From NCBI GenBank assembly GCA_903813345.2, contig CAIIXF020000007.1:13498714-13562713 (forward strand): a DNA stretch of 64,000 bases, read 5' to 3'. Below, one piece after another: positions 663-51,391 of this stretch. The position numbers and the translations under genes are program-made. The notes below the pieces were generated by a model. The model did no database searches. It worked only from the letters and a program-made list of their open reading frames with translations, and had not been told where the DNA came from. Each line of letters opens with the position of its first letter. Within the stretch, counting starts at the first letter, position 1. This DNA comes from Owenia fusiformis. Its lineage: Eukaryota > Annelida > Polychaeta > Sabellida > Oweniidae.

Positions 663-1690
663 GTAAGTTCTACTTAAGAAATATAGACAAAAGATCAGGG
701 GTTTATTCGTCGATATAACACCTGAACTGAGGTCTATATATTACGATCGAATATAAAAACTCACCAAAATATTTTGGATATTCATTATGGTCCGCCATTA
801 CTACGGGCCGCCGTAATGACGTCATCATACATTACTCGCATTACCAGGCGTATTATTCGCTAATATAACCCGGGTGAAATATTGACTAAGTTCACAGTTA
901 AAAGAAGGCGTTAATACACCCATGTTTGAATTCTAATTAGGTCCCTATATAAGCGAATCAAGTGTGAATAGGAGTAAGTATAGGAATATTACACGTTCAC
1001 GTTCATCTACAAGTTGTCTTAAAAGTTTGCAGCTTAACTTCGTCAACAAGCTAATACATATTCGAACATGACTGTATTCACGCCTTCTTTAAACTGTGAA
1101 CAAAGTCAATATTTCACCTGGGCTATATTCGCGAACAATACCCCTAGTAATACGAGTAACGTGTGACGTCTTAACGGTGGCCCGTAGTAATGGCGGACCA
1201 TAATGAATATTCGAAACATTTTGGTGAGTTTTCATGTTCGAATCGTAATATAGACCTGAGATCAGGTGTAATATCGACGATTACATCCCTTAGGGCCAGG
1301 CACAAAAGCTGTCGAACCCCTCACTCTCTTCGGTCGTTCGAGGTGTATTCAACAATATTACCCCTGCCCTTCGGTCTATATATTTCTTAACTATCTTCTT
1401 TTGTACCTTTTAAAGCTCAATCGAACATGTATAAATGAAAACGAAAGGAGAACTAATTCTCAGAGAATCATATATCTACACGTCAACATACGCGTTCTCT
1501 CAAGACGTGTAGCTCAACGCCTCTATTATCTCGTGGTTTTGGGGGGGATGGTGTATTATTATTATTAGACTCCAGATTGAAAATCTGGAGTCTATTGTTT
1601 TTGCCAGTATTCTTATTAGACTCCAGATGAAATCTGGAGTCTATTGTTTTCGTCAGTTTTCTTCTTCTTCTTCTTCTTCTTCTTCTTCTT

Positions 1691-1721
<31 letters not shown>

Positions 1722-4700
1722 TTCTTTTTCTAAACCAGTTTTCTCAATAACCATAAGGTCTTCAGTAAAGTCAATCATTTGGTCAATTTAGGTCCAGTAT
1801 CTAGTTCCTCGGAAATTTGGTCAAATTTTTATCTAGGTCAAAGGTCAAGAACTAGGTCAAATCCAGTACTTTGTCACTTTTTTCGATTTTCTCGGTCGTC
1901 CTTCAATATTTTCGATCTGGGTTTTTTTCATTGTGTTCCTCATAAAAAAGTAGGAAATCTAGGGTCGATTTAGTTTTTTGATATCTCAAACCAATTTCGA
2001 GATATCAGTGTCCGAAAACGAGGTCCAAAAAAAGTTCTCCGAATCAAATGTCTAGGATATTAGTCTTATAGAATATTTTCTCAGGATTCCGAATCTGAAA
2101 ACCAAATTTGGATCGGACTTCCGGTTCGGAAGTTATGGCGTTTTGAAAGCTCAAAAATCGCTAAATTTGGTGCCCATGTTAAGTCAATGGGAAAAAAGAT
2201 TCTTTTGAAATGAAAAATACGAAATATAGACTGAGATCAGCTAAATATAATGAAAGCTTTTAAAAGAATGGGACCTCAAAAGCCATCTAGCTTCAAAATT
2301 TGGACACCAAAATGCCTAGGTCAAAATCTAGGTCAAATTCAAAGTTTTTCCTTATTTTTGCTATTCTGACACTACAGATTAATTATATTCTTCGAAATTT
2401 TGTATACATGTAGCCAAGAGTGCGCTTATAGTGTTAGCCTTTTGCCGTCACAAAGGATTTTGCCCCACTTTTGAGATATGGTGTCCGAAAAGTAGGTCAA
2501 AATAAAAAATTCTCCAAATTTAACGTGTGAGTTATGAACTAAGTATAGAATTTTCTCAGGAATCCGAATCTGCAAACCAAATTTCGATCCGACTACCAGT
2601 TCGGAAGTTATGAGATTTTGAAAACTCAAAAATCGCTAAATTTGGTGTCCCATGTTATGTCAATGGGAAAAAAGATTTTTTTGAAGTGTAAAATACGAGA
2701 TATAGACTAAGTATAGCTTAAAATAATGAAAGCCTATGAAAGAAGGGAACCTCGAAGGCTACCTAACTTCAAAATTTGGACACCAAAATCCCTAGGTCAA
2801 AATCTAGGTCAAATTCATAGTTTATCCTTATTTTTGCGATTCTGACACTACACTTTAATTATATTTCTCGCAATTGTGTATACATGTAGCCAAGAGTGTG
2901 CTTATAGCGTTAGCCTTTTGCCGTCAGAAAGTATTTTGACCCACTTTTGAGATACGGTGTCCGAAAAGTAGGTCAAAAAAAAAAGTTCTCCAAATTTAAC
3001 GTTTCAGTTATGAATTAAGAATAGAATTTTCTCAGAAATCCGAATCTGCAAACTAAATTTCGATTCGACTTCCGGTTGCGAAGTTATGGCGTGTCCGAAA
3101 AGTAGGTCAAAATAAAAATTCGCCAAATTTAACGTATGAGTTATGAATTAGGGGTAGAATTTTGTCAGGAATCTGAATCTGCAAATCAAATTTCGATCCG
3201 ACTTCCGGTTCGGAAGTTATGGCGTTTTGAAATTTCAAGAAAAATCGATCTGATGGTATCCTGATAGAAAGTCAAGAGTAGAGAAGAAAATATTGAAAAA
3301 TGCATCCATCCTTCCTTTCTGATCCTATCCTATCCTTCCTATCTACCCTTGCTTCGTATCCTCTCCTTCCTATCCTTCCTATTCTATCCCTTCTTCCTGT
3401 TCTATTCTATCCTTCTTTTCTATTCTATCCTATCGTTCCTTCCTATTCTATCCTATCCTTCCTTCCTTTTTCATCCATCCATCCATCTTTTGCTGGATGA
3501 CTTAGCTTATTTTGGATGACTTGGCTTATTCTGGATGACTCGGCTAAAAAAAAGTCTAGATCTGGAGTCTGAAATTGAACTCGTTCAATTTCCAAAATCT
3601 AGTTATTATTAGACTCCAGATGAAAATCTGGAGTCTATTGCTTTTGCCAGTTTTCTTATTAGACTCCAGATGAAAATCTGGAGTCTATTGCTTTTGCCAG
3701 TTTTCTTATTATTAGACTCCAGATGTCAATCTGGAGTCTATTGTTTTTGCCAGTATTCTTATTATTATTTTTCTTTAAAAGTTTTTTCAATAACTATAAG
3801 GTATCCAGTAAAGATCATAATACAGTTTATTTAGGTTCAGTATCTAGTTGGTGGGAAATTGGGTCAAATTTTTATCTAGGTCAAAGGTCAAGAACTAGGT
3901 CAAATCCAGTACTTTGTCACTTTTTTCGATTTTCTCAGTCATCCTTCAATATTTTCGATCCGTTTTTTTTTCATTGTGTTCCTCATAAAAAAGTAGAAAA
4001 TCTAGAGTCGATTTAGTTTTTTGGTATCTCAAACCGATTTCGAGATATCAGTGTCCGAAAACGAGGTCCAAAAAGTTGGTTCTCCGAATCCAATGTCTAG
4101 GATATAAGTCTTATAGGAAATTTTCTCAGGATGCCGAATCTGAAAACCAAATTTCGATCTGACTTCCGGTTCAGAAGTTATGGCGTTTTGAAAATTCAAA
4201 AATCGCTAATTTTGGTGCCCCATGTTAATTCAATGGGAAAAAAATATTTTTTTGAAGTGTAAAATACGAGATATAGACTAAGCACAGCTAAACCTAATGG
4301 AAGCCCATAAAAGAAAGGGACCTCAAAACATTCTTTTCATAAATATTTGGACACCAAAATGCCTAGGTCAAAATCTAGGTCAAATTCAAAGTTTTTCCTT
4401 ATTTTGCGATTCTGACACTACAGATTAATTATATTCTTCGAAATTTTGTATACATGTAGCCAAGAGTGTGCTAATAGTGTTAGCCTTTTGCCGTCAGAAA
4501 GTATTTTGACCCACTTTTGAGATATGGTGTCCGAAAAGTAGGTCAAAATAAAAAAATCTCCAAATTTAACGTTTGAGTTATGAATTAAGTATAACATTTT
4601 CTCAGGAATCCGAATCTGCAAATCAAATTTCGATCCGACTTCCGGTTCGGAAGTTATGACATTTTGAAAGCTCAAAAATCGCTCAATTTGGTGCCCCATG

Positions 4701-7700
4701 TTATGTCAATGGGAAAAAAGATTTTTTGAAGTGTAAAATACAAGATATAGACTAAGTACAGCTTAAAATAATGAAAGCCTATGTAAGAAGGTGACCTCGA
4801 AGGCTACCTAACTTCAAAATTTGGACACCAAAATCCCTAGGTCAAAATCTAGGTCAAATTCATAGTTTTTCCTTATTTTTGCGATTCGGACACTATATTT
4901 AAATGATTTGCTTCAAAATTTTGTATACAGGTAGGAAAGAGTGTGCTAATAGTGTTAGCTTTTTGCCGTCAGAAAGTATTTCGACCCGCTTTTGAGATAT
5001 GGTGTCCGAAAAGTAGGTCAAAATAAAAAGTTCTCAAAATTTAACATATGAGTTATGAATTAAGAGTAGAATTTTCTCAGGAATCCGAGTCTGCAAACCA
5101 AATTTCGATCCGACTTCCGATTCAAAAGTTATGGCGTTTTGAAATTTCGAGAAAAATCGATCTGATCGTATCCTGATAGAAAGTCAAGAGTAGAGAAGAA
5201 AATATTGAAAAATGCATCCATCCTTCCTTTGTGATCCTATCGTATCCTTCTTATCTACCTTTCCTTCGTATCCTCTCCTTCCTATCCTTCCTATTCTATT
5301 CCTTCTTCCTATTCTATTCTATCATTCTTTCCTATTCTATCCTATCGTCCCTTCCTATTCTAGGCTATCCTTCCTTCCTTTTTCATCCATCCATCCATCC
5401 ATCTTTTTCTGGATGACTCAGCTTATTTTGGATGACTCGGCTTATTCTGGATGACTCGGCTAAAAAAAAGTCTAGATCTGGAGTCTGAAATTGAACTTTG
5501 TTCAATTTCCAAAGTCTAGTTATTCATTCTTTCTTTCTTTCTTTCTTTCTTTCCGAACACTTTTTCTCAGCAACTAGAAGAACTTACTTTAACCTACTTA
5601 CATGGCTAACATAGCCCATCAACCTAGTTTCTGGGAAATTAGGTCAAATTTTTATCTAGGTCAAAGGTCAAGAACTAGGTCAAATTTAGGTAAAATCAAC
5701 ATTCTGTCAATTATCTTCGTTGCTTATTGTCGTTACTCCTTCATCTTTTTTTCATCATGTAGCTTAGAAAAAAACAAATCGAGAGTGTGCCATCCGTTTT
5801 TTGATTACTCTTAGCGATTTTGAGATATGGCGTCCCGAAAGTAGGTCAAACTAAAAAAGTTCTCCAAATTTAACATATGAGCTATGGAATAAGGGTAGAA
5901 TTTCCTCAGGAATCCGAATCTGCAAACCAAATTTCGATCCGACTTCCCGTTCGAAAGTTATGGCGTTTTGAAATTTCGAAAAAAATCGATCTGATGTTAT
6001 CCTGATAGAAAGTCAAGGAAAAAAGATTTTTTTGAAGTGTAAAATACGAGAGATAGATTGAGTACAGCTTAAGATAATGAATTCCTATAAAAAAAGGGGA
6101 CCTCAAAAGCTACCTAGTTTCAATATTTGGACACCAAAATGCCTAGGTCAAAATCTAGATCAAATTCATAGTTTTTCCTTATTTTTGCGATTCTGGCACT
6201 ACACTTTTAGGATTTGCTTCAAAATTTTGTATACAGGTAGCAAAGAGTGTGCTAATAGTGTTAGCCTTTTGCCGTCAGAGAGTATTTTGACCCACTTTTG
6301 AGATATGGTGTCCGAAAAGTAGGTCAAAATAAAAAATTCTCCAAATTTAACATATGAGTTATGAATGAAGAGTAGAATTTTCTCAGGAATCCGAATCTGC
6401 AAACCAAATTTCGATCCGACTTCCGGTTCCAAAGTTATGGCGTGTCCGAAAAGTAGGTCAAAATAAAAATTCGCCAAATTTAACGTATGAGTTATGAATT
6501 AGGGGAAGAGTTTTGTCAGGAATCCGAATCTTTAAATCAAATTTCGATCCGACTTCCGATTCGGAAGTTATGGCGTTTTGAAATTTCGGAAAATTGATCT
6601 TATGGTATCCTGATAGAAAGTCAAGGAAAAAAGATTTTTTTGAAGTGTAAAATACGAGATATAGATTGAGTACAGCTTAAGATAATGAATTCCTATAAAA
6701 GAAGGGGACCTCAAATGCTACCTAGTTTCAATATTTGGACACCAAAATGCCTAGGTCAAAATCTAGGTCAAATTCATAGTTTTTCCTTATTTTTGCGATT
6801 CTGGCACTACACTTTTAGGATTTGCTTCAACATTTTGTATACAGGTAGCAAAGAGTGTGCTAATAGTGAGAGCCTTTTGCCGTCAGAAAATATTTTGACC
6901 CACTTTTGAGATATGGTGTCAGTAAAGTAGGTCAAAATAAAAAGTTCTCATAATTTAACTTATGAGTTATGAATTAAGGGTAGAATTTTCTCAGGAATCC
7001 AAATCTGCAAACCAAATTTCAATCCGACTTCCGGTCAAAAATTCCTACTTACCTACCTACTCGGCTACCTACTTAGCTACTTACTCAGCTACCTACTCAG
7101 CTACTTACTCAGCTACCTACTCAGCTACTTACTCAGCTACCTGCTCAACTACTTATTCAGCTACTTACTCAATTACTTACTCAATTACTTAATCATCTAC
7201 TTACTCAGCTTCCTACTCAGTTACTTACTCAGCTCTTTACTCAAGTAAATCAATCTGGAGTCTTAAATTGAACTTTGTTCAATTTACCAATCTAGTTATT
7301 ATTATTAGACTCCAGATTGAAAATCTGGAGTCTATTGTTTTTGCCAGTATTCTTCTTATTATTAGACTCCAGATTGAAAATCTGGAGTCTATTGTTCTCG
7401 TCAGTTTTCTTCTTCTTCTTCTTATTAGACTCCAGATGTCAATCTGGAGTCTATTGTTTTTGCCAGTATTCTTCTTATTAGACTCCAGATGTCAATCTGG
7501 AGTCTATTGTTTTTGCCAGTATTCTTATTCTTCTTCTTATTCTTATTCTTATTTTTCTTTTTGAGTTTTCTCAATAACTATAAGGTATCCAGTTAAGACC
7601 ATAATACAGTTTGTTTAGGTTCAGTATCTAGTTGGTGGGAAATTGGGTCAAATTTTTATCTAGGTCAAAGGTCAAGAACTAGGTCAAATCCAGTACTTTG

Positions 7701-10700
7701 TCACTTTTTTTGATTTTCTCGGTCGTCCTTCAATATTTTCGATCCGGTTTTTTTTCATTGTGTTCCTTATAAAAAAGTAGGAAACCTAGGGTCGATTTAG
7801 TTTTTTGATATCTCAAACCGATTTCGAGATATCAGTGTCCGAAAACGAGGTCCAAAAAAAAGTTCTCCGAATCAAATGTCCAGGATATTAGTCTTATAGG
7901 AAATTTTCTCAGGATTCCGAATCTGAAAACGAAATTTGGATCGGACTTCCGGTTCTGAAGTTATGGCGTTTTGAAAGCTCAAAAATCGCTAAATTTGGAG
8001 CCCATGTTAAGTCAATGGGAAAAAAGATTTTATTGAAGTGAAAAATACGAAATATAGACTGAGTTCAGCTAAATATAATGAAAGCTTTTAAAAGAATGGG
8101 ACCTCAAAAGCCATCTAGCTTTAAAATTTGGACACCAAAATGCCTAGGTCAAAATCTAGGTCAAATTCAAAGTTTTTCCTTATTTTTGCGATTCTGACAC
8201 TACAGATTAATTATATTCTTCAAAATTTTGTATACATGTAGCCAAGAGTGTGCTAATAGTGTTAGCCTTTTGCCGTCAGAAAGTATTTCGACCCACTTTT
8301 GAGATATGGTGTCCGAAAAGTACGTCAAAATAAAAAGTTCTCCAAATTTAACGTTTGAGTTATGAATTAAGAATAGAATTTTCTCAGAAATCCGAATCTG
8401 CAAACCAAATTTCGATCCGACTTCCGGTTCCGAAGTTATGGCGTGTCCAAAAAGTAGGTCAAAATAAAAATTTGCCAAATTTAACGTATGAGTTATGAAT
8501 TAGGGGTAGAATTTTGTCAGGAATCCGAATCTTTAAATCAAATTTATATACGACTTCCGGTTCGGAAGTTATGGCGTTTTTAAATTTCGGAAAATCGATC
8601 TGATGGTATCCTGATAGAAAGTCAAGAGTAGAGAAGAAAATGTTGAAAAATTCATCCATCCTTCCTATCTGATCTTATCCTATCCTTCCTTTCTATCCTT
8701 TCTTCGTATCTTTTCCTTCCTATCCTTTCTTCGTATCTTTTCCTTCCTATCCTATCCTATCCTTTCTTCCTATTCTATTCTATCCTATCCTTCTTTCCTA
8801 TTCTATCCTATCCTACCTTCCTATTTTATTAATCCATCTATTTCTAGATGACTCAGCTTATTCTGGATGACTCGGCTTATTCTGGATGACTCGGCTAAAA
8901 AAAGTCTAGATCTGGAGTCTGAAATTGAACTTCGTTCAATTTCCAAAATCTAGTTATTCTTATTCTTATTATTCTTTAGGAGTTTTTTCAATAACTATGA
9001 GGTATCCAGTAAGAACCATAATACAGTTTATTTAGGTTCAGTATCTAGTTGGTGGGAAATTGGGTCAATTTTTTATCTAGGTCAAAGGTCAAGAACTAGG
9101 TCAAATCCAGTACTTTGTCACTTTTTTCGATTTTCTCGGTCGTCCTTCAATATTTTGGATCCGGGTTTTTTTCATTGTGTTCCTCATAAAAAAGTAGAAA
9201 ATCTAGGGTCGATTTAGTTTTTTGGTATCTCAAACCGATTTCGAGATATCAGTGTCCGAAAACGAGGTCCAAAAAAAAGTTCTCCGAATCCAATGTCCAG
9301 GATATCAGTCTTATAGGAAATTTTCGCAGGATTCCGAATCTGAAAACCAAATTTCGATCTGACTTCCGGTTCAGAAGTTATGGCGTTTTGAAAATTCAAA
9401 AATCGCTAAATTTGGTGCCCCATGTTAATTCAATGGGAAAAAATATTTTTTTGAAGTGTGAAATACGAGATATAGACTAAGCACAGCTAAACATAATGGA
9501 AGCCCATAGAAGAAAGGGACCTCAAAACCTTCTTTTCATAAAAATTTGGACACCAAAATGCCTAGGTCAATATCTAGGTCAAATTCAAAGTTTTTCCTTA
9601 TTTTTGCGATTCTGACACTACAGATTAATTATATTCTTCGAAATTTTGTATACATGTAGCCAAGAGTGTGCTAATAGTGTTAGCCTTTTGCCGTCAGAAA
9701 GTATTTTGACCCACTTTTGAGATATGGTGTCCGAAAAGTACGTCAAAATAAAAAATTCTCCAAATTTAACGTTTGAGTTATGAATTAAGTACAGAGTTTT
9801 CTCAGGAATCCGAATCTAAAAACTAAATTTCGATCCGACTTCCGGTTCGGAAGTTATGACATTTTGAAAGCTCAAAAATCGCTAAATTTGGTGCCCCATG
9901 TTATGTCAATGGGATAAAAGATTTTTTTGAAGTGTAAAATACGAGATATAGACTAAGTACAGCTTAAAATGATGAAAGCCTATGAAAGAAGGGACCTCGA
10001 AGGCTACCCAACTTCAAAATTTGGACACCAAAATCCCTAGGTCAAAATCTAGGTCAAATTCATAGTTTTTCCTTATTTTTGCGATTCTGACACTATATTT
10101 AAATGATTTGCTTCAAAATTTTGTATACAGGTAGGAAAGAGTGTGCTAATAGTGTTGGCCTTTTGCCGTCAGAAAGTATTTTGACCCACTTTTGAGATAT
10201 GGTGTCCGAAAAGTAGGTCAAAATAAAAAGTTCTCCAAATTGAATATATGAGTTATGAATTAAGGGTACAATTTTGTCAGGAATCCGAATCTGCAAACCC
10301 GAACTCCAATGCAGTGTCTCGGTATAGACACTGCGGCGGGCAGATTATGGAATCCCCAAAATTTGGGGAAGATAGTCCCCCTTTTTGTCACAGATGTACT
10401 TGATTTTCATACAACTTATAAAATATATGTTCTTTTATGTTCACCAATCATTATTTTGTCAAAATATTTCAAAATTATTGAAATATGAGAAGAAATCACC
10501 GCGGAAGGAATTCTGAGTAAAAGTTTTGTTGATAATAGTTTACCGCACGTGTTGTTTATTAGTTAATACGCGCAATTCAACCAATGAAATTGTCTAAATT
10601 TTACAATCACGCGACCTGAGCATGGGACTAGAACCAATCACGTCAGTTGTTTATCACGAAGTTACCATGCTTACGGTGAGATACCTGCCCGCCGCAGTGA

Positions 10701-13700
10701 TATTATCACTGCACGGGAGTTCGCTGCAAACCAAATTTCGATCCGATTTCCGGTTCGGAAGTTATGGCGTGTCCGAAAAGTAGGTCAAAATAAAAAATCT
10801 CCAAATTTAACGTATGAGTTATGAATTAGGGGTAGAATTTTGTCAGGAATCTGAATCTGCAAACCAAATTTCGATCCGACTTCCGGTTCGGAAGTGATAG
10901 CGTTTTGAAATTTCGAGAAAAATCGATCTGATGGTATCCTGATAGAAAGTCAAGAGTAGAGAAGAAAATATTGAAAAATTCATCCATCCTCCTATCTCAT
11001 CCTACCCTATCCTTCCTATCTATCCTTCCTTCATATCTTTTCCTTCCTATCCTTCCTATCCTATCCTATCCTTTCTTCCTATTCTATTCTATCCTATCCT
11101 TCTTTCTTATTCTATCCTATCGTTCTTTCCTATTCTATCCTACCTTCCTATTTTATTTATCCATCTCTTTCTAGATGACTCAGCTTATTCTGGATGACTC
11201 GGCTTATTCTGGATGACTCGGCTAAAAAAAGTCTAGATCTGGAGTCTGAAATTGAACTTCGTTCAATTTCCAAAATCTAGTTATTATTATTCTAAACCAG
11301 TTTTCTCAATAACCATAAGGTTTTCAGTTAAGTCAGTCATTTGGTCAATTTAGGTCCAGAATCTAGTTCCTCGGAAATTGGGTCAAATTTTTAGCTAGGT
11401 CAAAGGTCAAGAACTAGGTCAAATCCAGTACTTTGTCACTTTTTTCGATTTTCTCGGTCGTCCTTCAATATTTTCGATCCGGGTTTTTTTCATTGTGTTC
11501 CTTATAAAAAAGTAGAAAACCTAGGGTCGATTTAGTTTTTTGATATCTCAAACTGATTTCGAGATATCAGTGTCCGAAAACAAGGTCCAAAAAAAAGTTC
11601 TCCGAATCAAATGTCCAGGATATTAGTCATATAGGAAATTTTCTCAGGATTCCGAATCTGAAAACCAAATTTAGATTGGACTTCCGGTTCAGAAGTTATG
11701 GCGTTTTGAAAGCTCAAAAATCGCTAAATTTGGTGCCCATGTTAAGTCAATGGGAAAAAAGATTATTTTTGAAGTAAAAAATATGAAATATAGACTGAGT
11801 TTAGCTAAATATAATGAAAGCTTTTAAAAGAATGGGACCTCAAAAGCCATCTAGCTTCAAAATTTGGACACCAAAATGCCTAGGTCAAAATCTAGGTCAA
11901 ATTCAAAGTTTTTCCTTATTTTTGCGATTCTGACACTACAGATTATTTATATTCTTCGAAATTTTGTATACATGTAGCCAAGAGTACGCTAATAGTGTTA
12001 GCCTTTTGCCGTCAGAAAGTATTTTGACCCACTTTTGAGATATGGTGTCCGAAAAGTAGGTCAAAATAAAAAGTTCTCCAAATTTAACGTTTGAGTTATG
12101 AATTAAGAATAGAATCTTCTCAGAAATCCGAATCTGCAAACCAAATTTCAATTCGACTTCCGGTTCCGAAGTTATGGCGTGTCCGAAAAGTAGGTCAAAA
12201 TAAAAATTCGCCAAATTTAACGTATGAGTTATGAATTAGGGGTAGAATTTTGTCAGGAATCCGAATCTGCAAATCAAATTTCGATCCGACTTCCGGTTCG
12301 GAAGTTATGGCGTGTCCGAAAAGTAGGTCAAAATAAAAAATCTCCAAATTTAACGTATGAGTTATGAATTAGGGGTAGAATTTTGTCAGGAATCCGAATC
12401 TGCAAACTAAATTTCGATCCGACTTCCGGTTCGGAAGTTATGGCGTTTTTAAATTTCGGAAAATCGATCTGATGGTATCCTGATAGAAAGTCAAGAGTAG
12501 AGAAGAAAATGTTGAAAAATTCATCCATCCTTCCTATCTGATCTTATCCTATCCTTCCTTTCTATCCTTTCTTCGTATCTTTTCCTTCCTATCCTTTCTT
12601 CGTATCTTTTCCTTCCTATCCTATCCTATCCTTTCTTCCTATTCTATTCTATCCTATCCTTCTTTCCTATTCTATCCTATCCTACCTTCCTATTTTATTA
12701 ATCCATCTATTTCTAGATGACTCAGCTTATTCTGGATGACTCGGCTTATTCTGGATGACTCGGCTAAAAAAAGTCTAGATCTGGAGTCTGAAATTGAACT
12801 TCGTTCAATTTCCAAAATCTAGTTATTCTTATTCTTATTATTCTTTAGGAGTTTTTTCAATAACTATGAGGTATCCAGTAAGAACCATAATACAGTTTAT
12901 TTAGGTTCAGTATCTAGTTGGTGGGAAATTGGGTCAATTTTTTATCTAGGTCAAAGGTCAAGAACTAGGTCAAATCCAGTACTTTGTCACTTTTTTCGAT
13001 TTTCTCGGTCGTCCTTCAATATTTTGGATCCGGGTTTTTTTCATTGTGTTCCTCATAAAAAAGTAGAAAATCTAGGGTCGATTTAGTTTTTTGGTATCTC
13101 AAACCGATTTCGAGATATCAGTGTCCGAAAACGAGGTCCAAAAAAAAGTTCTCCGAATCCAATGTCCAGGATATCAGTCTTATAGGAAATTTTCGCAGGA
13201 TTCCGAATCTGAAAACCAAATTTCGATCTGACTTCCGGTTCAGAAGTTATGGCGTTTTGAAAATTCAAAAATCGCTAAATTTGGTGCCCCATGTTAATTC
13301 AATGGGAAAAAATATTTTTTTGAAGTGTGAAATACGAGATATAGACTAAGCACAGCTAAACATAATGGAAGCCCATAGAAGAAAGGGACCTCAAAACCTT
13401 CTTTTCATAAAAATTTGGACACCAAAATGCCTAGGTCAATATCTAGGTCAAATTCAAAGTTTTTCCTTATTTTTGCGATTCTGACACTACAGATTAATTA
13501 TATTCTTCGAAATTTTGTATACATGTAGCCAAGAGTGTGCTAATAGTGTTAGCCTTTTGCCGTCAGAAAGTATTTTGACCCACTTTTGAGATATGGTGTC
13601 CGAAAAGTACGTCAAAATAAAAAATTCTCCAAATTTAACGTTTGAGTTATGAATTAAGTACAGAGTTTTCTCAGGAATCCGAATCTAAAAACTAAATTTC

Positions 13701-16700
13701 GATCCGACTTCCGGTTCGGAAGTTATGACATTTTGAAAGCTCAAAAATCGCTAAATTTGGTGCCCCATGTTATGTCAATGGGATAAAAGATTTTTTTGAA
13801 GTGTAAAATACGAGATATAGACTAAGTACAGCTTAAAATGATGAAAGCCTATGAAAGAAGGGACCTCGAAGGCTACCCAACTTCAAAATTTGGACACCAA
13901 AATCCCTAGGTCAAAATCTAGGTCAAATTCATAGTTTTTCCTTATTTTTGCGATTCTGACACTATATTTAAATGATTTGCTTCAAAATTTTGTATACAGG
14001 TAGGAAAGAGTGTGCTAATAGTGTTGGCCTTTTGCCGTCAGAAAGTATTTTGACCCACTTTTGAGATATGGTGTCCGAAAAGTAGGTCAAAATAAAAAGT
14101 TCTCCAAATTGAATATATGAGTTATGAATTAAGGGTACAATTTTGTCAGGAATCCGAATCTGCAAACCAAATTTCGATCCGATTTCCGGTTCGGAAGTTA
14201 TGGCGTGTCCGAAAAGTAGGTCAAAATAAAAAATCTCCAAATTTAACGTATGAGTTATGAATTAGGGGTAGAATTTTGTCAGGAATCTGAATCTGCAAAC
14301 CAAATTTCGATCCGACTTCCGGTTCGGAAGTGATAGCGTTTTGAAATTTCGAGAAAAATCGATCTGATGGTATCCTGATAGAAAGTCAAGAGTAGAGAAG
14401 AAAATATTGAAAAATTCATCCATCCTCCTATCTCATCCTACCCTATCCTTCCTATCTATCCTTCCTTCATATCTTTTCCTTCCTATCCTTCCTATCCTAT
14501 CCTATCCTTTCTTCCTATTCTATTCTATCCTATCCTTCTTTCTTATTCTATCCTATCGTTCTTTCCTATTCTATCCTACCTTCCTATTTTATTTATCCAT
14601 CTCTTTCTAGATGACTCAGCTTATTCTGGATGACTCGGCTTATTCTGGATGACTCGGCTAAAAAAAGTCTAGATCTGGAGTCTGAAATTGAACTTCGTTC
14701 AATTTCCAAAATCTAGTTATTATTATTCTAAACCAGTTTTCTCAATAACCATAAGGTTTTCAGTTAAGTCAGTCATTTGGTCAATTTAGGTCCAGAATCT
14801 AGTTCCTCGGAAATTGGGTCAAATTTTTAGCTAGGTCAAAGGTCAAGAACTAGGTCAAATCCAGTACTTTGTCACTTTTTTCGATTTTCTCGGTCGTCCT
14901 TCAATATTTTCGATCCGGGTTTTTTTCATTGTGTTCCTTATAAAAAAGTAGAAAACCTAGGGTCGATTTAGTTTTTTGATATCTCAAACTGATTTCGAGA
15001 TATCAGTGTCCGAAAACAAGGTCCAAAAAAAAGTTCTCCGAATCAAATGTCCAGGATATTAGTCATATAGGAAATTTTCTCAGGATTCCGAATCTGAAAA
15101 CCAAATTTAGATTGGACTTCCGGTTCAGAAGTTATGGCGTTTTGAAAGCTCAAAAATCGCTAAATTTGGTGCCCATGTTAAGTCAATGGGAAAAAAGATT
15201 ATTTTTGAAGTAAAAAATATGAAATATAGACTGAGTTTAGCTAAATATAATGAAAGCTTTTAAAAGAATGGGACCTCAAAAGCCATCTAGCTTCAAAATT
15301 TGGACACCAAAATGCCTAGGTCAAAATCTAGGTCAAATTCAAAGTTTTTCCTTATTTTTGCGATTCTGACACTACAGATTATTTATATTCTTCGAAATTT
15401 TGTATACATGTAGCCAAGAGTACGCTAATAGTGTTAGCCTTTTGCCGTCAGAAAGTATTTTGACCCACTTTTGAGATATGGTGTCCGAAAAGTAGGTCAA
15501 AATAAAAAGTTCTCCAAATTTAACGTTTGAGTTATGAATTAAGAATAGAATCTTCTCAGAAATCCGAATCTGCAAACCAAATTTCAATTCGACTTCCGGT
15601 TCCGAAGTTATGGCGTGTCCGAAAAGTAGGTCAAAATAAAAATTCGCCAAATTTAACGTATGAGTTATGAATTAGGGGTAGAATTTTGTCAGGAATCCGA
15701 ATCTGCAAATCAAATTTCGATCCGACTTCCGGTTCGGAAGTTATGGCGTGTCCGAAAAGTAGGTCAAAATAAAAAATCTCCAAATTTAACGTATGAGTTA
15801 TGAATTAGGGGTAGAATTTTGTCAGGAATCCGAATCTGCAAACTAAATTTCGATCCGACTTCCGGTTCGGAAGTTATGGCGTTTTGAAATTTCGAGAAAA
15901 ATCGATCTGATGGTATCCTGATAGAAAGTCAAGAGTAGAGAAGAAAATATTGAAAAATTCATCCATCCTTTCTATCTGATCCTATCCTATCCTTCCTATC
16001 TATCCTTCCTTCGTATCTTTTCCTTCCTATCCTATCCTATCCTTTCTTTCTATTGTATTCTATCCTATCCTTCTTTCTTATTCTATCCTATCGTTCTTTC
16101 CTATTCTATCCTATCCTACCTTCCTATTTTATTTATCCATCTTTTTCTGGATGACTCAGCTTATTCTGGATGACTCGGCTTATTCTGGATGACTCGGCTA
16201 AAAAAAGTCTAGATCTGGAGTCTGAAATTGAACTTCGTTCAATTTCCAAAATCTAGTTATTATTCTTTGGGAGTTTTTTCAGTAACTATGAGGTATCCAG
16301 TAAGAACCATAATACAGTTTATTTAGGTTCAGTATCTAGTTGGTGGGAAATTGGGTCAAATTTTTATCTAGGTCAAAGGTCAAGAACTAGGTCAAATCCA
16401 GTACTTTGTCACTTTTTTCGATTTTCTCAGTCGTCCTTCAATATTTTCGATCCAGGTTTTTTTCATTGTGTTCCTCATAAAAAAGTAGAAAATCTAGGGT
16501 CGATTTAGTTTTCGGTATCTCAAACCGATTTCGAGATATCAGTGTCCGAAAACGAGGTCCAAAAATTTGGTTCTCCGAATCCAATTTCCAGGATATCAGT
16601 CTTATAGAAAATTTTCTCAGGATTCCGAATCTGAAAACCAAATTTCGATTTGACTCCCGGTTCAGAAGTTATGGCGTTTTGAAAATTCAAAAATCGCTAA

Positions 16701-19700
16701 TTTTGGTGCCCCATGTTAATTCAATGGGAAAAAATATTTTTTTGAAGTGTAAAATACGAGATATAGACTAAGCACAGCTAAACATAATGGAAGCCCATAA
16801 AAGAAAGGGACCTCAAAACCTTCTTTTCATAAAAATTTGGACACCAAAATGCCTTGGTCAAAATCTAGGTCAAATTCAAAGTTTTTCCTTATTTTTGCGA
16901 TTCTGACACTACAGATTATTTATATTCTTCGAAATTTTGTATACATGTAGCCAAGAGTGTGCTAATAGTGTTAGCCTTTTGCCGTCAGAAAGTATTTTGA
17001 CCCACTTTTGAGATATGGTGTCCGAAAAGTAGGTCAAAATAAAAAAATCTCCAAATTTAACGTTTGGGTTATGAATTAAGTATAGAATTTTCTCAGGAAT
17101 CCGAATCTGCAAATTAAATTTCGATCCGACTTCCGGTTCGGAAGTTATGACATTTTGAAAGCTCAAAAATCGCTAAATTTGGTGCCCCATGTTATGTCAA
17201 TGGGAAAAAAGATTTTTTTGAAGTGTAAAATACGAGATATAGACTAAGTACAGCTTAAAATAATGAAAGCCTATGAAAGAAGGGGACCTCGAAGGCTACC
17301 GTACTTCAAAATTTGGACACCAAAATCCGTAGGTCAAAATCTAGGTCAATTTCATAGTTTTTCCTTATTTTTATAATTCTGACACTATATATGAATGATT
17401 TGCTTCAAAATTTTGTATACAGGTAGGAAAGAGTGTGCTAATAGTGTTAGCCTTTTGCTGTCAGAAAGTATTTCGACCCACTTTTGAGAAATGGTGTCCG
17501 AAAAGTAGGTCAAAATAAAAAGTTTTCAAATTTAACATATGAGTTATGAATTAAGGGTAGAATTTTCTCAGGAATCCAAGTCTGCAAACCAAATTTCGAT
17601 CCGACTTCCGGTTCGAAAGTGCGTTTTGAAATTTCGATAAAAATCGCCATCTGATGGTATCCTGATTAGATAGAAAGTCAAGAATAGAGAAGAAAATATT
17701 GAAAAATGCATCCATCCTTCCTTTGTGATCCTATCGTATCCTTCTTATCTACCTTTCCTTCGTATCCTCTCCTTCCTATCCTTCCTATTCTATTCCTTCT
17801 TCCTATTCTATTCTATCATTCTTTCCTAATCTATCCTATCGTTCCTTCCTATTTTAGCCTATCCTTCCTTCCTTTTTCATCCATCCATCTTTTTCTGGAT
17901 GACTCAGCTTATTTTGGATGACACAGCTTATTCTGGATGACTCGGCTAAAAAAAAGTCTAGATCTGGAGTCTGAAATTGAACTTCGTTCAATTTCCAAAA
18001 TCTAGTTATTCTTTCTTTCTTTCCGAACACTTTTTCTCAGCAACTAGAAGGACTTTCTTAAATCTGCTAATATAGTCAACTAGGTTATGAAACCTAGTTT
18101 CTGGGAAATTAGGTCAAATGTTTATCTAGGTCAAAGGTCAAGAACTAGGTCAAATCGTGGGTTTTCACTATTTTACAAGTTTATTCAGTCGTCCTTCGGT
18201 ATTTTTGCTCCGGGTTTTTTTCATCATGTTCCTTAGAAAAAAAGCTAATTCCGAAAGGCAAATCGTTTTTTGATTACTCTTACCGATTTTGAGAAATTAC
18301 GTCCGAAATGTAGGTCAGAACATAAAAAGTTCTCCAAATTCAATGTGTAAATTATCAAATAAGTGTAGAATTATCTCAGGAATCCGAATCTGCAAACAAA
18401 ATTTCGATCCGACTACCGGTTCAGAAGTTATAGCGTTTTGAAATCTCAAAATCGCTAAATTTGGTGCCCCATGTTAAGTCAATGGGGAAAAAGACTTCTT
18501 CGAAGTGTAAAATACGAGATATAGGCTGAGTACAGCTTAACATAATGAAAGCCTATAAAAGAAGGGGACCTCTAAGGCTATCTAGCATTAAAATTTGGAC
18601 AGCAAAATGCCTAGGTCAAAATCTAGGTCAAATTCAGAGTTTTTCCTTATTTTTGCGATTCTGGCACTACACTTTTAGGATTTGCTTCAAAATTCTGTAT
18701 ACAGGTAGCAAAGAGTGTGCTAATAGTGTTAGCCTTTTGCCGTCAGAGAGTATTTTGACCCACTTTTGAGATATGGTGTCCGAAAAGTAGGTCAAAATAA
18801 AAAAATCTCCAATTTTAACATATGAGTTATGAATTAAATGTAGAATTTTCTCAGGAATCCGAATCTGCAAACCAAATTTCGATCCGACTTCCGGTTCCAA
18901 AGTTATGGCGTGTCCAAAAATTAGGTCAAAATAAAAATTCGCCAAATTTAACGTATGAATTATGAATTAGGGGTAGAATTTTGTCAGGAATCCGAATCTT
19001 TAAATCAAATTTCGATCCAACTTCCGGTTCGGAAGTTATGGCGTTTTGAAATTTCGGAAAATCGATCTGATGGTATCCTGATTGAAAGTCAAGGAAAAAA
19101 GATTTTTTTGAAGTGTAAAATACGAGATATAGATTAAGTACAGCTTAAGATAATGAATTCTTATAAAAGAAGGGGACCTCAAAAGCTACCTAGTTTCAAT
19201 ATTTGGACACCAAAATGCCTAGGTCAAAATCTAGGTCAAATTCACAGTTTTTCCTTATTTTTGCGATTCTGGCACTATACTTTTAGGATTTGCTTCAAAA
19301 TTTTGTATACAGGTAGCAAAGAGTGTGCTAATAGTGAGAGCCTTTTGCCGTCAGAAAGTATTTTGACCCACTTTTGAGATATGGTGTCCGAAAAGTAGGT
19401 CAAAATAAAAAGTTCTCCAAATTGAACGTATGAGTTTTGAATTAAGGGTAGAATTTTCTCGGGAATCCGGATCTTCAATTAAAATTGCAATCCGACCCCC
19501 AGTTAAGATTCTACGCCATTTTTAAGTTTGAAATTCGCACTTGCCAGTATTCACGATGCATATTGATCAAATATACTTTCAAAAATTCCTACATACCCTA
19601 CTTTACCTCCCTACCTACTCAGCTACTTATTTGACAACTAATTACTCAATTACTTAATCAGTTATTACTTACTTAGCTACTTACTCAGCTACTTACTCAG

Positions 19701-22700
19701 CTACCTACTCAGCTGCTTACTCAGCTACCTACTCAGCTACTTACTCAATTACTTACTCAGCTACTTACTCAGCTACATACTCAGCTACTTACTCAGCTAC
19801 CTACTCATCTACGTACTCAGCTTCCTACTCAGCTCTTTACTCAAGTAAATCAATCTGGAGTCTTAAATTGAACTCTGTTCAATTTACCAATCTAGTTATT
19901 CTTATTATTCCGTAGCCGTTTTTTCAGAAACTATAAGGTATCCAGTAAAGACCATTATACAGTTTATTTAGGTTCAGTATCTAGTTGGTGGGAAATTGGG
20001 TCAAATTTTTATCTAGGTCAAAGGTCAGGAACTGGGTCAAATCCAGTACTTTGTCACTTTTTTCGATTTTCTCAGTCGTCCTTCAATATTTTCGATCCGG
20101 GTTTTTTTCATTGTGTTCCTTATAAAAAAGTAGGAAAGCCAGAGTCGATTTAGTTTTTTGATATCTCAAACCGATTTCGAGATATCAGTGTCCGAAAACG
20201 AGGTCCATAAAAAAGTTCTCCAAATCAAATGTCCAGGATATTAGTCTTATAGGGAATTTTCTCAGGATTCCGAATCTGAAAACAAAATTCGGATCGGCCT
20301 TCCGGTTCGGAAGTTATGGCGTTTTGAAAACTCAAAAATCGCTAAATTTGGTGCCCATGTTAAGTCAATGGGAAAAAAGATTTTTTTGAAGTGAAAAATA
20401 CGAAATATAGACTGAGTTCAGCTTCATATAATTAAAGCCTTTAAAAGAAGGGGACCTCAAAAGCCACATAGCTTCAAAATTTGGACACCAAAATGCCTAG
20501 GTCAAAATCTAGGTCAAATTCCAAGTTTTTTCTTATTTTTGCGATTCTGACACTACACTTTAATTATATTCTTCGAAATTGTGTATACATGTAGCCAAGA
20601 GTATGCTAATAGCGTTAGCCTTTTGCCGTCAGAAAGTATTTTGACCCACTTTTGAGATATGGTGTCCAGAAAGTAGGTCAGAATAGAAAGTTTTCCAAAT
20701 TTAACGTTTGAGTTATGAATTAAGGATAGAATTTTCTCAGAAATCCGAATCTGCAAACCAAATTTGGATCCGACTTCCGGTTCCGAAGTTATGGCGTGTC
20801 AAAAAAGTAGGTCAAAATAAAAATTCGCCAAATTTAATGTATGAGTTGTGAATTAGGGGTAGAATTTTGTCAGGAATCCGAATCTTTAAATCAAATTTAG
20901 ATCCGACTTCCGGTTCGGAAGTTATGGCGTTTTGGAATTTTGGAAAATCGATCTGATGGTATCCTGATAGAAAGTCAAGAGTAGAGAAGAAAATATTGAA
21001 AAATTCATCCATCCTTCCTATCTGATCCTATCCTATCCTATCCTTCCTATCTATCCTTCCTTCGTATCCTTTCCTTCCTATCCTTCCTATCCTCTCCTAT
21101 CATATCCTTTCTTCCTATTCTGTTCTATCCTATCCTTCTTTCTTATTCTATCCTATCGTTCCTTCCCATTCTATCCTATCCTACCTTCCTATTTTATCCA
21201 TCCATCTTATTCTAGATGACTCAGCTTATTCTGGATGACTCGGCTTATTTTAGATGACTGGGCTTAAAAAAGTCTAGATCTGGAGTCTGAAATTGAACTT
21301 CGTTCAATTTCCAAAGTCTAGTTATGTTTATTTTCCCTCCAAGATAGGAGATAAATATATAATAATTAGGATACATAAATTGCATTGAAAGTATATAATA
21401 GTGAATGATATATATGAACATCAAGTATACGTAACTATACTGTATGTACTAATGTTATATAGCCAATATCGCAAATCACTACTCCCATCTGCCCATGTTT
21501 GCGTAAAAAATCTAATAGATGAAATAGATCATATTGATTTTGAGTGATTTATGTGCGTGCCATTATCACCTCGATAAAAAGTTCTAGTTTAAAAGTTTCC
21601 TTCTCTTTGAAGATACATGTCTCGTATGTCACATGCAATTGCTTTTAGTTCATTTGGACTTAAACGGTCATCTCCTCCGAAAATCAACATCATTTTCTCC
21701 TGTGTGGTCATAGGAGGATTCATACTGGAATAAGTGTTAACTATGGCCTCGATGCGTTTCCTATTAACAGCATTATTTGAACAAAATAAAGTGAAGTGTT
21801 CTACTGTTTCGACTTCATCTCCACAGAGCGGGCATAGCCTCTCTTGAAAAGGGATCCCTTCCCATTCACCAGTATTTACTCTCAAATTTCCCTGTCCCGT
21901 TAAAAGACGAACCATCAGCGCACATCTTCTCAAGTATCTTGGATCTTGTCTAGCGACCAACCACCATATAATAGGTTTTACATCCTGCACTATTCCTCTG
22001 TACAGTTTTAACTTTTGATACGTGGTCACTTCTCTCTTCCATCTGTTAAGGTCATAATCTCGGATTTTTGTGCTTACTATGCGTTTCCATAATGTCTTAG
22101 AAGGCATTTCTATAGAGTCCAACATGTCATATATGCAGTTTGTAATCCCGTACCGTTCGGCAAGGTTCATAATGTCATTTATCGGAGAAAGACTATTCAG
22201 CGGTCTAGATCCGACTCTGAATGCAACCATACGTTTAATAGCGATGCTTCTGTAAACAGATCCAAGGGTCATGGATAACACCTGTAGAAGAAACATCATC
22301 TTCATGATAATAATAGTTGTTGTAATGCTATGCCAGCCAAGTTGTGGTAGAATTGCAACATTCGGTGTGCTCACTGGGAGACCCTGTAATTTTTTCGCAA
22401 TATTGCGGTGTCCCTGTTCCAAGACCTCATATTCAACGTCATTAAGGTGGACCAGTTCCATGCCAAAAGTCATCGAGGGGACGCTTACAGCCCAATATAA
22501 TTTGGACGCAGTGAGTGGGTTTGTGGGGTCTGTGCAGCTTGTTGTCGTCCCAACGTATGCGTTAATGGACCTTCGAGCTCTAGAAATCCTGTCATCTACC
22601 AGCTCCCTGTTACTGTTACGGGCAGACAGGGGTAAGCCAACGTGTTGCGTAGACGTCACGACCGGTATCACGCTTTCTCCAATTTTTAGTTCAATGGGTG

Positions 22701-25700
22701 CGGTTGGGGTCTTCTTCTTTGTAAAGACAACCACTTGGCATTTTTTCGGATGGAATTTAATCCTCCAAAGTTTACTATATTTATGCATTGTGTCAAGAAC
22801 AAATTGTACAGAGTTTTTATGGTATCCTATAATGACCATGTCGTCAGCATAGGTCGGACATGTACACACAATGTCACCTATCGTGCAGCCTTTTCCACAG
22901 TTGACAATATCAAGTATTAATCTATTCATGTATAACGAATGCAATTCCATAGAGTAAATACCCCCTTGGTGTACGCCTTGTGATATGTTGAATTTTTCGG
23001 AAAGAACACCATCTGAGCTACATCTAACTGCACATTTATAATCCATATAACATAAACGCAAAAGTCTCCATAGTTTTCCATTGACACCCAAGTTAAACAT
23101 TTTGTACAACAGGCCTGCGTGCCACACACTGTCGAAACTTTTGCGGATGTCAGCTGACACGACAATAACGTCCTCACCATTTTCCAGTCCATGACTAATA
23201 GCTTCTCTTGCTAAGAAGGATGTATGAAGGCAGGATGTATGTTTCTTATTTGCGGCTTGCAAATCTGAGATCTTTTCGGATAACTTAACATTTTCACTTC
23301 TTGTAACCATTAGCTTTTCTAAGATTTTCATGTATGCAACTATCAAGGTGATGCCTCTGTGGTTGTCCTTATCAAGGTTATCTTTGTTTCCTCCTTTAAA
23401 TATAGGAACTAATAGTCCAAGCTTAAAACTCTCAGGAATATATTCTACCTTAATAATTTGGTTAAATAGCTCTGTAAGCAACTGGAGCAGAACCCTACCT
23501 CCATGTTGAATGTGTTCTGCGCTTATTCCATCCCACCCTGTAGCTTTGTTCTTTGTCAGGGTGCTAATTAGCTTCTCCATTTCCTCAACACTTATAGGTT
23601 CAGCAAAAGAATTATCATCATTAAACACGCTCTCAAGTACCATTTCGTCTACTCTCTTGGAAACATACTGCTCATGATCCGAGTCATAGCTGTCATCATT
23701 TGTAGGGGATAAAAGTCGACTGAAATAGTCCATCCACTCACTCCTTATCGCTTGATCCTCAGTTAAAATTTCACCTGTGTCACTTCTAATTGCTGATGAT
23801 GTACCACTTTTCCTTCTGCGTTGCTTAACTAGGTACCAAAATCGTTTCATACTGATATCTGAAGCACCATCAATTTCATTCTGGCATTCAATTTCATACG
23901 CTACTTCAGCTCTTCTTAATTCTCTACGAAAGTCACGCTTTGCTGTCTTATAACATATCCAAGCATCATTTCCTGGATCTCTAGGTCTTCCTTGTTGTTT
24001 CCATATACGGAACGCTGATTTCTTATCATTCGACAAAACTTTCAGAACTTGTGACCAATAAGGTTTAAGATGCTTTCTGTAGCGTGACTTAGGAATAGCT
24101 CGATCTGCTATAGTCTTAAGTAATTCAGTTATTCTATCAAAAATATTGTCTATGTCATTGGGTGCCATTAACCCTTTCATATTATTCACTTGCTCCATCA
24201 AAGGTGTCAAACGGTCATCCACTACACTGGTATAGTTTTCGATCAGGTCCCTCATATCAATCTTGTTCCACGCTGGTTTGGTGATATTGGCACTTACGTT
24301 ACAGGGAGTAGTGATTGGCGTTGTAAGACATGATTCAATAGCAACCTGCAAGGGTAAATGATCTGAATTATTCAAAAAATCTTCTTCTAGAATTTTAGCA
24401 TGCACAACATTACAGTTTTCAGAAATTAAACAATGATCAATGTAAGACTTTCCAACATTTTCTCTATAGTAGGTATACTCTGGGCCTGAGCATTTTTCAG
24501 TTAAATCAGAAATTACTAAATTACATCTCAACGCCATGTTACTTAACATAACACCATTCCTACTTATCACACCAGATCCTCTGACGCCATAATGACGCCC
24601 TAAATTAACATTAAAGTCACCGATGATTACAATATCGCCGTCATCTTTCAATGCTGATACACCTTCAAGCTCATCTAAGACCTCTGAAAAAACATAGTTT
24701 TTACAATTGCGCTGTGGCATATATACAGATATTATGTAAATAGACCGTGCATTTGGTTGTACAAACTTAACAACAAGAAATCTATCACTTGAACTTAGTT
24801 TCTTTTGCGGGAAAATCTGTTTAGAGAGAGATCGCCTCCACATGATGGCGACTCCTCCATTGCCTATCTGATGTCCTTGGTCAAGTGAGTCTAGTGTTTT
24901 ACTGCTCACTGAATAACAGTCAAAAAGTGGATCAAAGTTATTTAGTTTGTCTAGAGCACTTTCGTACAACCAATGTTCACTCAAACACATGATATCAGAA
25001 ATGGACAATAACGTTTTGAGATACGGGGATGAGGCACTTAGACCATTGGCATTCCAAGCTGTAATAGTTAAGGACTTAAGACTCATACTTGTCATTGAAT
25101 ACAAAGTTATTGCCATCCATTTCCCATACAGATTTCCTAAAGTACTCATTTGTAGATTCATATATGTCTTCATAGTCAATACTGTCATTGTTATGAGATA
25201 TTCGGTCATCACTGTCTTGTCCGTCTACGTCTCTCTTGAAAGACCGGTACGATCTCGTATTTTTCTTACGATTATACTCCCACTTCCTGCAATGGATTGG
25301 ATCAGGCCATGTGTTCGGATCGAGTGCTTTGTTTAATGAGGTCACAGGAACAGTAATCTTACACCCGACACGATTATTGTTGAATTTATTTGTTACAACC
25401 CAGCATTTGTTAATACATATGTTATGCGAGGTGGCATGGTCTTTTATTTGTAATATGATGTCGTTATCTGACTCGCATCTATCCTTTGCTATGTTCTCAA
25501 CATAAAGTGTTACATGTTTAACAGCAGAAACACCTCGAAGTGAGCGAGCAGGTTTGTAATGACCTTCGATAGCAAGTCGCTACTACAGTCTCAGCTGTAG
25601 TGGCTAGCCCTTATGGCTCAGGGGTAGAGCGTCTGACACGAGAGCGGGAGGTTCTGGGCTCGATTCCCGTACGGGGCATTGAATTAAGCACATTCTCTTT

Positions 25701-50936: not shown

Positions 50937-51391
50937 GTAAGTAAATCATTAAATTACATGTACAGTACAACTCATATTTTTTAAGAAACTTTTTTTGCGT
51001 TAGGATTTTAATCCATTTCTTTTTATTGGTCTGCGATTGAAGATGTCCAGAAAAACATTAGATTAAAATAAAAGTCGATTACAATAATATTATAAATATC
51101 AGTAAAAATTAATATAGATGACTGTTGCAATAAAACGTTTTTGTATATATTATCTGATTCATGATGATAATATTATTGAATATAAAATGATTCATACCAA
51201 ATTGAAACCAGAGCTCACAAATAATTGATCAATAGTTACAGGGCACAATACTCTTGACAAGGCGTGTATTAATTTGGAAACAATGAAGATATGCAATATT
51301 AATGAAAGTCAATTGTTATGTACAAGAGCGTTTCTGATTCTCATATAGACTCACTATAACAAACACATTTTATATTTCAGATTGAAGCACC

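Follow-up and report, generated by a model that had tools for sequence, protein, structure and literature searches.

The window analysed here is a stretch of 64,000 nucleotides from the annelid Owenia fusiformis (contig CAIIXF020000007.1, positions 13,498,714 to 13,562,713 of the forward strand), in which a single host intron contains an array of about 20 kb (1567-21321) combining eleven Helentron-like 3' ends with nine palindromic 5' cassettes. The initial annotation had described the array as head-to-tail and satellite-like; in this study its ends were paired in the window and at loci on contig C1, and the pairing points to elements inserted one within another. The parsed array consists of the following features (window coordinates, strand, description).

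1567-1597, +, 5' palindromic cassette 1 of the outermost element; partner body 19896-21321; folded z about -7
1618-3602, +, complete uninterrupted element; cassette 1618-1646, class B tail; 3' end 3560-3602
3611-3640, +, 5' cassette (class C) of an interrupted element; class b5 body at 18006-19895, end ACCAATCTAG
3661-3690, +, 5' cassette (class C) of an interrupted element; class b5 body at 5520-7295
3714-5519, +, complete uninterrupted element; 3' end 5476-5519
5520-7295, +, body and 3' end (7253-7295); partner cassette 3661
7307-7337, +, 5' cassette; partner body 16257-18005
7364-7394, +, 5' cassette with CGTCAG tail; body 11281-12822; second body copy 14717-16256
7427-7456, +, 5' cassette; body 8954-11280; second body copy 12823-14716
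7480-8953, +, complete uninterrupted element, innermost in its group; 3' end 8910-8953
8954-11280, +, body and 3' end (11237-11280); partner cassette 7427
11281-12822, +, body and 3' end (12779-12822), hybrid at the duplication junction; assigned to cassette 7364
12823-16256, +, second copy of the two preceding bodies, 3' ends 14673-14716 and 16213-16256; tandem duplication, offset 3869 bp
16257-18005, +, body and 3' end (17962-18005); partner cassette 7307
18006-19895, +, body and 3' end (19853-19895); partner cassette 3611
19896-21321, +, body and 3' end (21278-21321) of the outermost element; partner cassette 1567

Ends and identity of the elements

A scan of both strands of the window for ATCTGGAGTCT gave 29 exact matches, from 1567 to 21288; the single further match, at 36737, carries one mismatch, and with up to one mismatch 1.02 matches are expected by chance. 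Eleven of the 29 are 3' ends (3560, 5476, 7253, 8910, 11237, 12779, 14673, 16213, 17962, 19853 and 21278), and all eleven consist of the subterminal inverted repeat (subTIR) ATCTGGAGTCT followed by an inverted repeat, CTAG and TT, which bears out the common 3' architecture first noticed for eleven units. The other 18 matches are the paired arms of nine perfect palindromic 5' cassettes, built as AGACTCCAGAT-loop-ATCTGGAGTCT-ATTG with a short tail (for example TTTTTGCCAGTATTC); a cassette match on the opposite strand is the reverse reading of one of these palindromes and was disregarded. Folded as single-stranded DNA, three of the eleven 3' ends gave a hairpin (z -2.7 to -3.4), and the cassette at 1567-1597, folded at two lengths, gave a strong one (z about -7). 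The cassettes are grouped as two (from 1567), three (from 3611) and four (from 7307), and therefore just three of the eleven units start with cassettes. The bodies hold core repeats, with periods of about 133 and 475 bp in Tandem Repeats Finder, and a microsatellite precedes each 3' end, of the pyrimidine-rich (ATCCT)n type at nine ends and (CTACTTACTCAG)n at two (7253 and 19853), as the initial annotation had recorded for the TATCC-type and second motifs. The kinship with 'pearl' elements suggested there would lie in the central repeats and the microsatellite.

HINEs and Helentrons are described as having palindromic subTIRs, a 3' hairpin, a TT target, no coding capacity, and internal repeats with microsatellites (Thomas, Vadnagara and Pritham 2014, PMC4067079). 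HINE subTIRs share 11 or more identical bases between the two ends (in mite families 12-15 bp), and the parsed elements carry the 11-bp pair AGACTCCAGAT / ATCTGGAGTCT. The 5' subTIR, placed 2-4 nt from the terminus in HINEs, starts here directly after TTATT, of whose terminal Ts some may belong to the element. At the 3' end 3560-3602 the subTIR runs from 43 to 33 nt from the CTAG end and the hairpin stops about 10 nt before it, in agreement with the ranges cited for HINEs (subTIR about 38-60 bp and palindrome 8-35 bp from the 3' terminus), the inner edge of the subTIR being slightly closer. Insertion at TT lacks a longer target duplication, in that 20 of 21 joined nests restore TTATTATT once one TT is removed, and no stop-to-stop frame of at least 150 amino acids is found within 1567-21321. 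The Helentron/HINE hallmarks noted at the outset are thus present (11-bp subTIR, 3' hairpin to CTAG, flanking TT, no frame of 150 amino acids or more), and the end features support a classification of the array elements as putative HINEs, that is, non-autonomous Helentrons. The elements share with described HINEs (PMC4067079) the palindromic subTIRs, the 3' hairpin, TT on both sides with no longer duplication, the lack of coding capacity and the repeats and microsatellites. Beyond what is described there, they carry a TTA-rich spacer behind the 5' palindrome, which is a target for further copies.

Over the 498-Mb assembly, the cassette pattern has 2567 exact matches and the 3'-end pattern 2818, and the reversed patterns have none. 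Copies elsewhere end at the same CTAG hairpin beside unrelated flanks, with TT on each side in a W-ATT / TT-R-T context and no target duplication beyond TT seen; the observations that the initial annotation had named as refuting its reading did not arise. A second family of the same architecture has an unrelated subTIR (AGAATGCC...GGCATTCT), with 61 exact cassettes and 11 neighbouring cassette pairs 53-68 bp apart. An unrelated repeat with a chance match to the 11-mer was also observed, with identical flanks caactgaacactgggcacattcaga...gttgccattcgcc at seven places on contig C1 (L013, L014, L015, L020, L021, L037 and L038); loci with such family-unrelated matches (for example L013-L015, L020, L021, L024, L037 and L038) were not used.

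Balance of 5' and 3' ends

When each 5' cassette is read as an opening bracket and each 3' end as a closing one, the order of ends in the window is (()((())(((()))))))), with nine opening and eleven closing. Two of the closing ends belong to one true tandem duplication of about 3.9 kb (offset 3869 bp), and without these two duplicated 3' ends the word closes 9/9, reaching zero exactly at the right edge. If elements nest, a closing end belongs to the most recent open cassette; most internal units are without a 5' cassette because their cassette stands further left, paired by nesting. The head-to-tail, satellite-like description therefore does not hold: cassettes and 3' ends balance in nested pairs, and only the one duplication of about 3.9 kb is tandem.

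The same reading was applied to 16 loci, with up to 28% mismatches allowed; those on contig C1 were taken from the first 100 listed matches of the 11-mer (to 7.2 Mb) together with the largest array, picked for its size. Ten loci balance as they stand, among them ((()(((()))))()) at C1:3412001-3432000, which closes 8/8, and the window balances once its duplication is removed. The remaining loci comprise one with 17/11 ends, which was partly fetched, one with 2/1 (L016) and three with cassettes only. A 53-kb array on C1 has 23/23 ends by exact patterns. An 11-kb stretch without exact ends lies between two cassettes inside this nest (G000:C1:22611571-22622792) and may be a foreign insertion or an altered element.

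Two accounts of the array make different predictions for this order. Rolling-circle concatemers, in which the terminator is bypassed and multimers are inserted as one array, are the explanation usually given for tandem Helitron arrays and have been invoked for those of bat and silkworm, ascribed to a bypassed termination signal (PMC4067079), and tandem arrays have been taken as support for rolling-circle transposition in the Helraiser paper (PMC5876387); the precise 3'-to-5' junctions seen here would also fit. However, concatemers predict identical two-ended units or many 5' ends with one 3' end, whereas the units here are of different classes, their cassettes find matching bodies by nested and not by sequential pairing, with nest partners matching and neighbours not (see below), and an element of a different family can sit inside an array: one nest (L026) contains a AGAATGCC-family element with both its own ends and further cassettes directly after it. 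For the bulk of the array, concatemers were rejected on the nested pairing and balance of the ends, and we regard this origin as extremely unlikely. Extra cassettes could alternatively be local duplications of the 5' end with no nested insertion, as the multiple 5' termini with a single 3' end in Fusarium (Chellapan 2016, PMC5148889) and the two cassettes with one end at L016 might suggest. Adjacent cassettes nevertheless often differ in class, each with a matching body further to the right, and counts balance in 10 of the 16 scanned loci, or 11 with the window duplication removed, one further locus being partly fetched; such duplications are scarcely credible as the source of the array.

Matching of cassette and body classes

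Cassettes were classed by their tails and bodies by the motif at the body start. For 42 elements from 12 loci, nest pairing gives a mutual information of 1.85 bits between the two classes, against 0.92 for first-in-first-out pairing; when cassettes were shuffled within arrays the mean was 0.85 and the maximum 1.39, and 0 of 10000 shuffles reached 1.85 bits. In 20 of the 42 elements cassette and body are neighbours and the element is uninterrupted. The cassette-body combinations of these are repeated in 21 of the 22 interrupted elements, whereas shuffles give a mean of 11.5 and a maximum of 20 (0 of 20000 reach 21). An independent test, which used the listed loop and 3'-end letters only, gave 1.04 bits for 44 pairs in seven C1 arrays (shuffles: mean 0.35, maximum 0.79, 0 of 5000 reaching 1.04 bits). 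The pairing tests exclude the 3' ends 14673 and 16213 as second copies, and seven partnerless cassettes stand outside the 42 pairs (six in the partly fetched C1:22.59-Mb array and one at L016). Also excluded were the loci with nothing but cassettes (L009, L011 and L036), those with a lone 3' end (L012 and L018), L030, where the pattern gave no 3' end, and the degenerate L033 (1/1).

The matching also bears on an account in which circular copies recombine homologously into residents through the TTA tract. Circular intermediates have been reported for Helraiser (PMC5876387) and suggested for Fusarium Helitrons (PMC5148889), yet a homologous exchange in the spacer would join the resident cassette to the body of the newcomer and so produce a class mismatch, whereas partners match in 21 of 22 cases; this route thus appears exceedingly improbable. 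Transposase-mediated insertion of a circle is compatible with nested self-insertion.

The 3.9-kb duplication is the place where satellite-style growth, by unequal crossing-over of a cassette-plus-body unit, does have an example. The second copy of the body belonging to cassette 7427 differs from the first by a single 433-bp gap, all 1894 aligned bases being identical, and the duplication contains the exact runs 8832-10299 = 12701-14168 and 10724-12449 = 14160-15885 (12701 is where the compared slice started, and the duplication may begin further left). The duplication is recent and later than the nesting. Of the eleven 3' ends, however, it accounts for only two: identity is 88-95% between the remaining same-class pairs that were compared in the window, the units differ in class and most are without a cassette, and joined flanks restore an uninterrupted spacer in 20 of 21 cases. 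Satellite growth was rejected by the bracket and class tests for the bulk of the array, and as its general origin we consider it very unlikely.

Insertion site and carried spacer

The spacer between cassette and body is (TTA)n/(TTC)n. TTATT directly precedes all 37 inner cassettes examined, of which 28 lie within 60 bp behind another cassette, eight behind a sibling 3' end and one behind an element of the other family. When the remnants of the outer element are joined with one TT kept, TTATTATT is restored in 20 of 21 cases, the exception being a TTC-rich spacer; keeping both TTs would yield TTATTTTATT, a sequence present in none of the 20 uninterrupted spacers. The joined nests are in-genome empty sites, and the filled site carries one TT more than the empty one; the extra TT may be carried by the element or be a 2-bp target duplication, two origins that the sequence leaves indistinguishable. 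Nothing in the tandem paralogue of the host gene matches the left part of the host intron, and empty sites are therefore available within nests only. In all parsed arrays the elements share one orientation.

Within 44 units, TTATTATT occurs 77 times in spacers and once in bodies, and the preference of insertions for spacer over body therefore follows from the motif. Genome-wide there are 114,673 TTATTATT sites, of which spacers are estimated to hold about 4% (1.75 per unit x 2567), whereas 1006 cassette-to-cassette and 393 3'-end-to-cassette junctions together involve 54% of the 2567 exact cassettes (exact patterns, requiring only the first arm of the second cassette; the cassette-to-cassette count misses the shortest spacing, 15 nt). 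The TTATTATT motif alone is therefore insufficient genome-wide. Whole-nest copying, the length of the TTA tract and selection could each explain part of this excess. It is possible, though doubtful, that the resident 5' palindrome also acts as a landing pad, a transposase bound to it steering insertions to a TT 20-40 nt downstream, so that the family would home into itself and spare the genome.

Probable growth by self-insertion

Taken together, the bracket balance, the class matching of nest partners, the siting of inner cassettes at TTATT in the spacer and the restoration of the spacer on joining lead us to read the array, with a probability of about 0.9, as a nest of non-autonomous Helentron-type elements that grew chiefly through self-insertion into a target borne by the element itself. 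The element consists of a 5' part (the palindrome AGACTCCAGAT-loop-ATCTGGAGTCT, a tail of about 20 nt and a (TTC/TTA)n spacer), a body (roughly 1.3-2.7 kb) that holds core repeats and a microsatellite, and a 3' part (subTIR, hairpin and CTAG). The target is a TT in a TTATT/ATTAT context, of which the spacer behind the cassette offers a run. A newcomer would often insert in the spacer of a resident, parting the resident cassette from its body, and with each further insertion cassettes would accumulate to the left, and bodies together with their 3' ends to the right; siblings would insert beside the 3' end of an earlier child, in what remains of the same spacer. The constant orientation would arise because only one spacer strand carries TT. 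We infer mobilisation by a Helentron Rep/helicase through single-strand transfer.

Several observations weigh against this reading. By exact patterns, among the matches listed on C1 (88 of 100 listed cassettes and 95 of 100 listed 3' ends, the list of 3' ends reaching 24.6 Mb), 21 of 47 clusters balance (14 single elements and seven larger clusters), whereas nine larger clusters and 17 one-ended ones do not; two of the nine were rescanned, of which L022 balances with mismatches allowed and L016 stays at 2/1. The first 20 kb of the 53-kb C1 array contain an extra, mismatched cassette, giving at least 24/23; at least one 3' end is therefore missing or altered, and the exact balance of 23/23 is partly luck. 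Both sets of classes were defined after the sequences had been looked at. Nest depth and divergence are uncorrelated (rho 0.19, p 0.27, n 35, from a noisy 450-bp alignment), and the expected order of ages is therefore not seen. The attraction of insertions by the palindrome is inferred from counts only.

Finally, no autonomous element with the ends of the array was found in the stretches read beside Rep frames on contigs C5 and C6, where end positions were guessed from frame lengths; in about 4.7 kb beside two Rep loci the array subTIR is absent with up to one mismatch, and the two Rep matches on C1 have no exact cassette nearby among the matches listed. The genome contains 58 Rep-domain matches, 57 of them above the cut-off, and 19 of 20 Rep loci examined carry the Helentron-type motif FYRVEFQMRGSPHV/IH, the S form, described as diagnostic of Helentrons (Thomas 2014, PMC4067079). 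Many of the Rep matches (loci L039-L058) come from small contigs, C13 and C515 being among those with several, and sit in open frames of up to 3377 amino acids; the one locus scanned with Pfam has DUF6570 ahead of the Rep domain.

Host intron and neighbouring features

The array intron is bounded by the following two exon features.

about 519-662, +, host exon upstream of the array-bearing intron (translation); paralogous exon at about 30.0-30.14 kb
25778-25897, +, probable next host exon; 91.7% identity to 30650-30769 of the tandem paralogue

Tandem paralogues at 30.0-34.1 kb correspond both to the exon at about 519-662 and to the matches that start near 25.78 kb, and the paralogous intron (about 30.14-30.65 kb) is about 0.5 kb long against an array of about 20 kb; the placement of the array in one intron is thereby supported. 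The two tandem paralogous genes extend over 519-28185 and about 29990-34701 and have membrane-protein-like exons, and their two long last-exon frames gave no Pfam match. In the same intron, 697-1290 to the left of the array contains imperfect inverted repeats (43, 78 and 116 nt) that flank a short centre with 83-90% complementarity, and is probably a fold-back or MITE-like element. About 270 bp to the right of the array lies a LINE-like element (21589-25579, - strand), whose 1211-amino-acid frame contains reverse transcriptase (RVT_1) and endonuclease domains; another open frame lies upstream of this one. Further along the window, 51386-53947 (+ strand) is an intron-free frame of 853 amino acids with AMP-binding and PP-binding domains, which may resemble ebony-like amine-conjugating enzymes.

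Relation to known systems and significance

Self-insertion has been proposed for the multiple 5' termini of Fusarium Helitrons (Chellapan 2016, PMC5148889), and for one Metarhizium triple nested insertion and rolling-circle replication were left open in the same paper. The present array resembles these Helitron2 elements in that multiple 5' termini are explained by self-insertion. The fungal examples are, however, presented there as single cases with the options not tested apart, whereas here nests of up to at least eight elements are fully parsed and the class-matching test separates nested insertion from rolling-circle replication. Compared by description, the Pacific oyster element Cg_HINE (Vojvoda Zeljko 2020, PMC7492417) is likewise a non-autonomous Helentron with central tandem repeats and T-rich targets, but it is described as a dispersed carrier of internal repeats, unlike the nested array of the window. 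Plant centromeric arrays (Xiong 2016, via PMC12628747) are also made of Helitron copies; they are described as truncated copies with multiple 5' ends and a single 3' end, attributed to rolling-circle amplification, whereas here the ends balance in nests. According to a 2025 review, plant arrays arise by rolling-circle amplification, and Drosophila transposon dimers reflect a preference for certain insertion sites. Among open-licence papers in PMC, which were the literature covered (subscription journals being outside its scope), we found no report of long nests so parsed, nor of a carried target spacer.

In conclusion, the papers covered contained no report of self-insertion on such a scale, of the bracket test or of a carried landing pad, self-insertion itself having been suggested earlier for isolated fungal cases. 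The bracket test is simple, uses the sequence alone, separates nested self-insertion from concatemers and from unequal exchange, and is applicable to published arrays. An element that carries its own supply of targets has a way to grow within an intron with little new damage to genes, and palindrome-directed homing, if true, would add a mode of target choice that is new to Helentrons.

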